Under the pieces are notes generated by a model, which was not told where the DNA came from, searched no databases, and saw only the letters and a list, made by a program, of their open reading frames with translations. DNA of 54,562 nt from Flavobacteriales bacterium (lineage in GTDB: Bacteria > Bacteroidota > Bacteroidia > Flavobacteriales_D > JAHECK01): assembly GCA_024641785.1 (NCBI GenBank), contig JAHECK010000005.1, positions 1 to 54,562 of the forward strand. Reading direction: 5' to 3'. Of this stretch, positions 46,342 to 48,126 are shown piece after piece; position 1 is the first letter of the stretch, and each line of letters begins with the position of its first letter. The position numbers were made by a program, and so were the translations under genes.

Positions 46342-48027
46342 TTGAGAAAATTCTATATCCACATATCAATATTATTAATACTATTTTCTTGTTCAGAATC
46401 TGCTGTTGATGAAAAAAAATACAGTGATGATGATTTTAGGCAAATTATCATCGAGAGTATTCAACTTGGAAATGAATTAAACTTTGAAGCCGCTTTTAAT
46501 AAACTGAATTTCTGCATAAAGGAAGCTAAAGAACAAAGTAATGTAGAATATGAAATTATTGCGACAATCAATTTTGGCTTGCTATATCATAAATTTAATG
46601 ATAGAGAACAAGCCCTATCTTATTATTTAACAGTTCTTGATCTCATAAATAAAAATGGGAAAGAAGAATTTTTAAATGCTGTTTATAATAATATAGGTAT
46701 TATTTATTCCGAGAATAAAAATTTCGAAGAGGCAGATAGTTATTTTAGAAAAGCGCTTTGGATAAGTCAAAAACAAAACAAAGAAGAAAGGGTTGCAATT
46801 AATTTGATAAACATTTCTAATATCAAAAAAGGACTGAATGAACTTGATTCTGCACTATTTTATAATTATAAGGCTCTTGAAATATTGGAATTCAATAATA
46901 TTGAAAATTTCCAATCAATCGCTTACAATAATATCGGTGAGATCCAGCTTATAAATGGGGAAATTAAAGCTTCCAATTCAAATTTCAGAAATGCAATTTC
47001 ACTGGAATTAAAAAATGGAGATCAATCTAATTTTGGTTTTTTGGAACTTAATTACGGGAAAAGTTTCATTCAATTAACCAATTATGATTCAGCAAAAATA
47101 CATTTAGAAAAGGCTTTATTTTATCTAAAAAAGATGAATAATGCCGAAGCTTTGTCAGAATGTTATTATTGGTTATCTAAAAATGAACTTCATGCTAAAC
47201 ACTCCAATTTAGCCTTTGTATATTTTGATAAAAGCCTTGCTTGGAAAGACACTTTATTGTTTCAATCGAAAGACAAATGGATTTCAGAAACTAAAATTAA
47301 ATATGAATTAGGAAAAATAGCAAAGGAGAATGAATACCTTGAGGAAAAATCACTGTTACAAAGAAGGATAATTTATTTTATTATCATTCTATCAATCTTA
47401 TTTATCATTTTTTTGGTATCAATTTGGAGAACAAGAAACAAAAACTTAAAACAAAAAAACATCATATTAACTAAGGAAAAAGAACTAGCTAAAGTTCTGA
47501 TAGAGAAAAATGAAGTCCAAAAATTGAAACTTCAAGAGGAGATGGAAAATCAGCAAAAATTAAACAAGATAAAACAAGATAATATCGAACTTGAATTAGA
47601 GCATAAGAATAAAGAAGTAGTTTCGAAAGCGATTCATTTAATGAATAAAAACGAGATCCTTTCTTTCCTATATAATTTGGTAAAACAAATAAAGATTGAT
47701 GATGAGGATCCAAACAGGAAGGCCTTGGAGGAAATGAGTCTTAGCATAAAGAATAATTTAAACCAGGATAAAGACTGGGAAGACTTCAAATTGCATTTCG
47801 AAAAAGTCCATCAAAGTTTTATTAAAAATCTCAATACAATACATCCTGAACTCTCCCCTACCGATTTGCGCTTATGCGCGTATCTATTGATTGACTTGAA
47901 CCCAAAAGAGATTGCTAATATCTCAAACATTTCACCGGAATCCGTTAGAAAAAGGAAGCAAAGACTACGTGAAAAAATGGGGATTGAGTCGACAGATAGT
48001 TTAGAAGATTATCTCAAATCATTGTAA
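46342..48027 (+). CDS. TPR-repeat, transmembrane, coiled-coil regulator with C-terminal LuxR-like HTH
   Basis: Lipobox-like LILFSCSES; TPR NAVYNNIGIIYSENKNFEEADSYFRKALWISQKQ; TM IIYFIIILSILFIIFLVSIW; HTH LSPTDLRLCAYLLIDLNPKEIANISNISPESVRKRKQRLREKMGI. TTG start. Confidence 0.85.
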   Translation: MRKFYIHISILLILFSCSESAVDEKKYSDDDFRQIIIESIQLGNELNFEAAFNKLNFCIKEAKEQSNVEYEIIATINFGLLYHKFNDREQALSYYLTVLDLINKNGKEEFLNAVYNNIGIIYSENKNFEEADSYFRKALWISQKQNKEERVAINLINISNIKKGLNELDSALFYNYKALEILEFNNIENFQSIAYNNIGEIQLINGEIKASNSNFRNAISLELKNGDQSNFGFLELNYGKSFIQLTNYDSAKIHLEKALFYLKKMNNAEALSECYYWLSKNELHAKHSNLAFVYFDKSLAWKDTLLFQSKDKWISETKIKYELGKIAKENEYLEEKSLLQRRIIYFIIILSILFIIFLVSIWRTRNKNLKQKNIILTKEKELAKVLIEKNEVQKLKLQEEMENQQKLNKIKQDNIELELEHKNKEVVSKAIHLMNKNEILSFLYNLVKQIKIDDEDPNRKALEEMSLSIKNNLNQDKDWEDFKLHFEKVHQSFIKNLNTIHPELSPTDLRLCAYLLIDLNPKEIANISNISPESVRKRKQRLREKMGIESTDSLEDYLKSL

Positions 48028-48032
48028 AAGCA

Positions 48033-48069
48033 GTCACACTTTGTCACGCTTTTGGTCACGCTATGTCAC
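48033..48069 (+). promoter_or_regulatory. Four phased GTCAC direct repeats (candidate operator)
   Basis: GTCAC at 48033, 48043, 48055 and 48065 (spacing 10, 12, 10 nt), upstream of the -7-like TACTTTTG at 48102-48109. Confidence 0.55.
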
Positions 48070-48101
48070 AGCATATTTTCTTTTATCTTTAGGTATAAAT
48101 T

Positions 48102-48109
48102 TACTTTTG
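48102..48109 (+). promoter_or_regulatory. -7-like element of the downstream T9SS gene
   Basis: TACTTTTG matches TAnnTTTG; no good -33 element; ATG at 48127. Confidence 0.45.
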
Positions 48110-48126
48110 TCGCAAAATTTATACTT

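Follow-up and report, generated by a model that had tools for sequence, protein, structure and literature searches.

Our comparative analysis indicates that four GTCAC boxes between the genes for a membrane-spanning TPR protein and a secreted T9SS surface protein, in a 54,562-nt stretch of a Flavobacteriales genome (the window), very probably form the tandem operator of the adjacent regulator, which would activate a promoter without a -33 box (Table 1). The comparison among relatives revealed the array and its geometry, a fixed distance to the promoter, a link to the type of regulator and the nature of the target. An earlier note on this DNA had proposed tandem binding by the adjacent TPR/TM/HTH protein, or else by some other activator, and thereby control of the T9SS gene, and this reading is strongly supported by the comparative sequence data. 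Since the array tracks the type of recognition helix and keeps a fixed distance to the -7 element, we favour the neighbouring regulator over an unrelated activator.

Table 1. Features of the window, with box types and downstream genes at the survey loci
Feature	Position or loci	Strand	Remarks
Putative regulator	46342..48027	+	TPR domain, one TM, coiled coil, C-terminal LuxR/NarL-type HTH
Putative operator box 1, GTCAC	48033..48037	+	~-81 relative to predicted TSS
Putative operator box 2, GTCAC	48043..48047	+	10 bp past box 1
Putative operator box 3, GTCAC	48055..48059	+	12 bp past box 2, 22 bp past box 1
Putative operator box 4, GTCAC	48065..48069	+	10 bp past box 3; ~-49 relative to predicted TSS; geometry conserved
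-7 promoter element TACTTTTG	48102-48109	+	6/6 match to TAnnTTTG; 37 bp past box 4 start
Putative target, secreted Ig-like protein, 984 aa	48127..51081	+	T9SS sorting domain, Pfam and NCBIfam Por_Secre_tail
GTCCAC/GTCCCC boxes	L112, L114, L121
GTAACC/GTATACC boxes	L221, L222
GTTGCC boxes	L210, L237
GTAG boxes	L243
T9SS-tailed proteins behind modules	window, L070, L081, L109, L212, L222, L243
Lipoprotein-like proteins behind modules	L112, L114, L121
TonB-dependent receptors behind modules	L234, L237, L210, L254		L234, L237 by Pfam; L210, L254 by N-terminal sequence
Others behind modules	L231, L252, L256, L053, L221		L252, L256 small proteins; L053, L221 of unclear type

The positions of the four boxes, their 10-12-10 spacing and the start of the array 6 nt past the regulator stop were given exactly in the earlier note. 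The boxes are not evenly phased as a set of four, however, but form two 10-bp pairs with a distance of 22 bp, or two helical turns, between the first boxes of each. Within the window, GTCACN4-8GTCAC has three matches, all of them inside the array, compared with 0.05 expected. A genome-wide search for GTCAC pairs detected three further isolated pairs and no second array in the 3.3-Mb genome (G000, a draft with 6% estimated contamination). No convincing array-like sites precede other genes of this genome, and the regulon therefore looks local.

The promoter matches its earlier description: a TAnnTTTG element lies upstream of the T9SS gene at the expected place, and no -33 element is visible. TACTTTTG agrees with the Bacteroidota sigma-A -7 consensus at 6/6 positions (consensus from PMC9723704). 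As the TAnnTTTG box of Flavobacterium psychrophilum is located at -12 to -5 (PMC9723704), the TSS of the T9SS gene is predicted at ~48114, relative to which the boxes span -81 to -45. Among the array loci, the last box keeps a constant distance to the promoter (37 and 38), whereas the interval between the regulator stop and the array varies (5, 138 and 190 nt), which assigns the array to the promoter of the target. Across the array loci, a TTG-ended -7 element is found 37-39 bp beyond the last box. The T9SS frame is also open 5' of its ATG, back to a TTG within the array (48052-48126); such an open frame 5' of the true start could lead automatic annotation to a wrong start codon and so conceal the promoter, and the same applies to L081.

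Conservation in close relatives, on which the earlier note had staked its reading, was observed both in a congener (G001) and in another family (G004), where the array occupies the same place. The regulator of G001 is 57% identical to that of the window and is followed by the array GTCACAACTTGTCCTGCATGATGTCACGGAATGTCACG, in which the 10-12-10 spacing is kept and one box has decayed. The contig stops inside this array, which cuts off the start of the target and its promoter, and the target is absent from the G001 contigs. In G004, with 33% identity for the regulator and 39% for the target, the array GTCACGTTTTGTCACGCTAATTTTCAGGCGAAGTCACGGTTTGTCACG has a 10-22-10 spacing and lies upstream of the orthologous T9SS gene. 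When 399 genomes of the order were searched blindly for the four boxes, only two matches came up, the window and the orthologous G004 site, both located between orthologous regulators and targets, and the reversed control pattern gave zero matches in these genomes. When three mismatches were allowed in 15 genomes, only the loci of the window, G001 and G004 were matched.

The target carries a C-terminal type A sorting domain (PF18962, E 9.2e-14; TIGR04183, E 9.1e-10). Searches of the order (limited to two scored candidates per genome for this long query), the class and GTDB contigs yielded clear orthologues only in the window genome and in G004, where the orthologue again comes after the same regulator and array; the target is thus rare. 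A second contig of the window assembly (L078; G000:C140, 5668 bp) holds a syntenic 3' part of a target that is ~60% identical, followed by a similar gene order (DUF1905, IF2_N-like and further genes). It probably represents a contaminating congener, given the estimated contamination of 6%, or a duplicated region. In L078 the DUF1905 gene comes after the target, but in the window it precedes the regulator.

The regulator has Pfam matches to TPR and, below threshold, to GerE (19.4 bits against a cutoff of 23.5), and GerE matches were found in 8/8 of its relatives (best E 3.1e-6). Hydropathy indicates one strong TM segment at about residues 343-361, with the TPR domain on the other side from the HTH. 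For the C-terminus, AlphaFold2 predicted a long coiled coil and a four-helix HTH with a mean pLDDT of 88 (best of five models, from a two-sequence alignment), and Foldseek aligned it with the HTH domains of DosR, RcsB and EvgA at a probability of 0.99, with the whole coiled-coil model as query and every E-value above 0.1. A GerE-type four-helix HTH at the C-terminus, as in LuxR/NarL-type proteins, is thereby found in the regulator and its relatives; the recognition helix in the window reads SVRKRKQRLREKM. The N-terminus (46342-46420) resembles a lipoprotein signal with a lipobox-like segment, and comparable N-termini are seen in the regulators of the window, L069 and L070 (ILLILFSC, LLLFITAAC and GILILLAGC). 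Together with the central TM, such a signal would be compatible with a doubly anchored periplasmic sensor.

To extend the comparison, 40 loci within the order and 80 class loci chosen by homology alone were combined with the first loci into a sample of 126 homologous regulator genes. An RKR[K/R] recognition helix is present in five of these, and all five have a GTCAC array just downstream, while no 10-bp GTCAC pair follows any of the other 121 regulators; three of the five cases are orthologues. The five include one paralogue and one prospectively found case. The paralogous TPR-HTH regulator of G004 (26% identical) has GTCACACAAAGTCTACAGCATATGTCACAAAATGTCGCA (10-13-10) 9 nt behind it and, beyond this array, a second T9SS gene, distinct from the window target. 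The prospective case, the distant L212 from the later set (helix ACRKRKERIEKRL), has the array GTCACAATTTGTTTTCAACCATGTCACAATTTGTCAC with a 10-12-10 spacing before a T9SS gene, and TACATTTG 38 bp past the last box.

Other TPR regulators are followed by the same geometry with different boxes, mostly 11 bp apart within a pair (Table 1). Among the first 43 regulator loci (536,508 bases), seven complete GTC arrays were detected, all on the strand of the regulator and starting 5-190 nt past its stop; the next best triplet gave three arrays. A relaxed module (four GT at distances of 10/11, 11-13 or 21-23, and 10/11, plus [TAC]TTG 41-43 past the last GT) follows 19 of the 126 regulator genes, whereas 14 of 4,423 control windows contain it (p 3.8e-22 by Fisher test, with relatedness ignored), and dinucleotide shuffles gave a mean of 0.32 and a maximum of 3 per set. 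As this module was defined after the first examples, an offset scan and the later set served as guards against circularity: when TTG offsets of 25-74 were scanned, 41-42 stood out sharply (21 of 44 arrays), with no such peak in controls, and the homology-selected class set alone has the module in 11 of 83 cases. In a geometry scan, 11-21 ranked top. The module was found after none of the 28 large regulators (>760 aa) with the same HTH, and about four fifths of the ~91 TPR-sized homologues (500-760 aa) have none immediately downstream, which suggests that their targets lie elsewhere or that the grammar is looser. Upstream of the regulators there are no arrays, with scores at background. The genes behind modules mostly encode envelope proteins, i.e. 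T9SS proteins, lipoproteins and TonB receptors, as expected for a regulator with a periplasmic sensor.

The survey also yielded sites of other kinds. A strict blind search for four GTCC boxes in 359 genomes returned minisatellite repeats only and was uninformative, the real GTCC-type arrays being degenerate. On the strand opposite to the regulator of L202, ~2 kb past it, lies a GTCCA-type array (11-22-11, TTTG at +41); it is not adjacent to the regulator found and possibly belongs to another regulator or to a different target. Conserved, Pho-box-like 11-11-11 TAA arrays (e.g. TAACATTTTGTTAATGTAACGGTAATAAAATGATAATGG) come after SLRVSRYRLRKK-type regulators at L217, L218, L224, L234 and L254, 8-80 nt past the stop, and in L234 and L254 a GT module is located further downstream of the TAA array, before a TonB receptor-like gene.

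We infer from these patterns DNA binding by the regulator, its oligomeric state, activation rather than repression, the TSS and a periplasmic signal. The regulator would be a membrane-spanning one-component protein in which a periplasmic TPR sensor is connected through one TM helix to a cytoplasmic coiled coil and a LuxR/NarL-type HTH. Coiled-coil dimers, probably two, could set four HTHs on the two direct-repeat pairs, with one dimer per pair and the dimers side by side. LuxR/NarL domains often bind inverted sites, and direct repeats would therefore need a particular dimer arrangement. The last box would lie ~49-50 bp upstream of the TSS, just above the place that a -33 element would occupy, which suggests that the bound protein recruits polymerase. 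By contact from just above -35, it would probably bring sigma-A RNA polymerase to the TAnnTTTG element, which has no -33 partner, and thereby switch on the T9SS surface protein.

The same repeats could be read in other ways. The Pho box consists of TGTCA repeated every 11 bp, the tandem direct repeats of OmpR/PhoB-type regulators, and the GTCAC box and its layout resemble it; a response regulator of the OmpR/PhoB type, or another activator unrelated to the neighbouring gene, might therefore bind the array. The 11-11-11 TAA arrays, of a different kind, that adjoin such regulators at some survey loci likewise imply that other tandem-site activators may act nearby. However, the spacing here is 10/12 or 10/22 instead of the uniform 11 bp of a Pho box, and the target is a T9SS protein, unlike the phosphate genes near which Pho boxes are expected. 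Moreover, the array is unique in its genome, occurs in the 399 genomes only beside this regulator and target, and has a box sequence and within-pair spacing that track the recognition helix of the adjacent regulator, which makes an unrelated activator very unlikely.

We also consider it unlikely that the regulator binds the array and represses the target or itself, or that the array serves autoregulation. Sequence is blind to the difference between activation and repression, and the array starts right behind the regulator stop, but the boxes keep a fixed distance to the core promoter and are located upstream of it, not over the -7 element or the start, the promoter has no -33 box, and the regulators have no array upstream of them. 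Terminators do occur directly behind stop codons, where this region is located; still, an origin of the repeats by chance or as an RNA feature (terminator or leader structure) is practically negligible in view of the few pairs expected in the window and the conservation across families. The repeats are direct and not inverted, and a terminator, riboswitch or leader was rejected in view of the ordinary RNA fold of the array region (z -0.96) and the lack of an Rfam match.

Beyond the neighbouring regulator as activator of the window promoter, the survey sequences point, with fair likelihood, to a class-wide code: TPR-TM-LuxR-type regulators of Bacteroidia would bind four (T)GTnnC(C) boxes, arranged as two helically phased pairs at a fixed distance of 37-39 bp to the -7 element of the envelope gene next to them, with the recognition helix setting the box letters and the spacing within pairs (RKR[K/R]: GTCAC, 10 bp; others: 11 bp). 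If this is true, operators and targets could be predicted from the protein sequence, and regulator-target pairs, start sites and box specificities from sequence, all of which would then be easy to test. TPR-TM-HTH proteins are common in Bacteroidia: a profile of their cytoplasmic part, which also picks up larger sensors sharing the C-terminus, matches in 180 of 395 sampled genomes. The grammar, if it holds, would apply to many systems in which T9SS cargo, lipoproteins and TonB receptors are controlled, and the constant position of the boxes points to a common mode of activating Bacteroidota promoters without a -33 box.

The nearest named protein model is the BT3442 family (NCBIfam NF053779). 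Residues 69-558 of the regulator align to positions 99-559 of 563, and all eight array-linked regulators match the model; with 53.5 bits against an equivalog cutoff of 940 bits, the regulator is a relative of this family and not a member. For BT_3442 itself, TPR motifs are stated and nothing more (PMC2954219), and in the open-access literature searched we found no description of the four-box grammar or of an operator for the TPR type. NarL/FixJ/LuxR-type regulators (GerE, PF00196) share the HTH fold and its C-terminal placement, whereas the regulator described here has no receiver domain, a membrane-anchored TPR sensor and a four-box direct-repeat operator. AraC-type HTCS of Bacteroides are likewise membrane sensor-regulators with direct-repeat sites, 21 bp apart on average (PMC3878776), but consist of histidine kinase, receiver and AraC domains, of which our regulator has none. 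The nearest known kind are the SusR-like regulators of Bacteroides (SusR/BT3705 and paralogues), for which two direct-repeat sites at distances of 67 or 77 bp have been predicted on one face of the DNA (PMC3878776). Neither the window nor G004 has two direct-repeat sites at these distances; in contrast to the SusR layout, there are four short boxes in two close pairs, with 10/11 bp within pairs, 12 or ~22 bp between them and a fixed distance to the -7 element. In both kinds the predicted sites are direct repeats, and the predicted architecture of the window regulator, with one TM, a C-terminal HTH and the TPR domain on the other side, would resemble that of these Bacteroidota membrane proteins, in which a periplasmic sensor and a C-terminal HTH serve the control of adjacent surface-protein genes, a role which the regulator of the window would fulfil for its T9SS protein.
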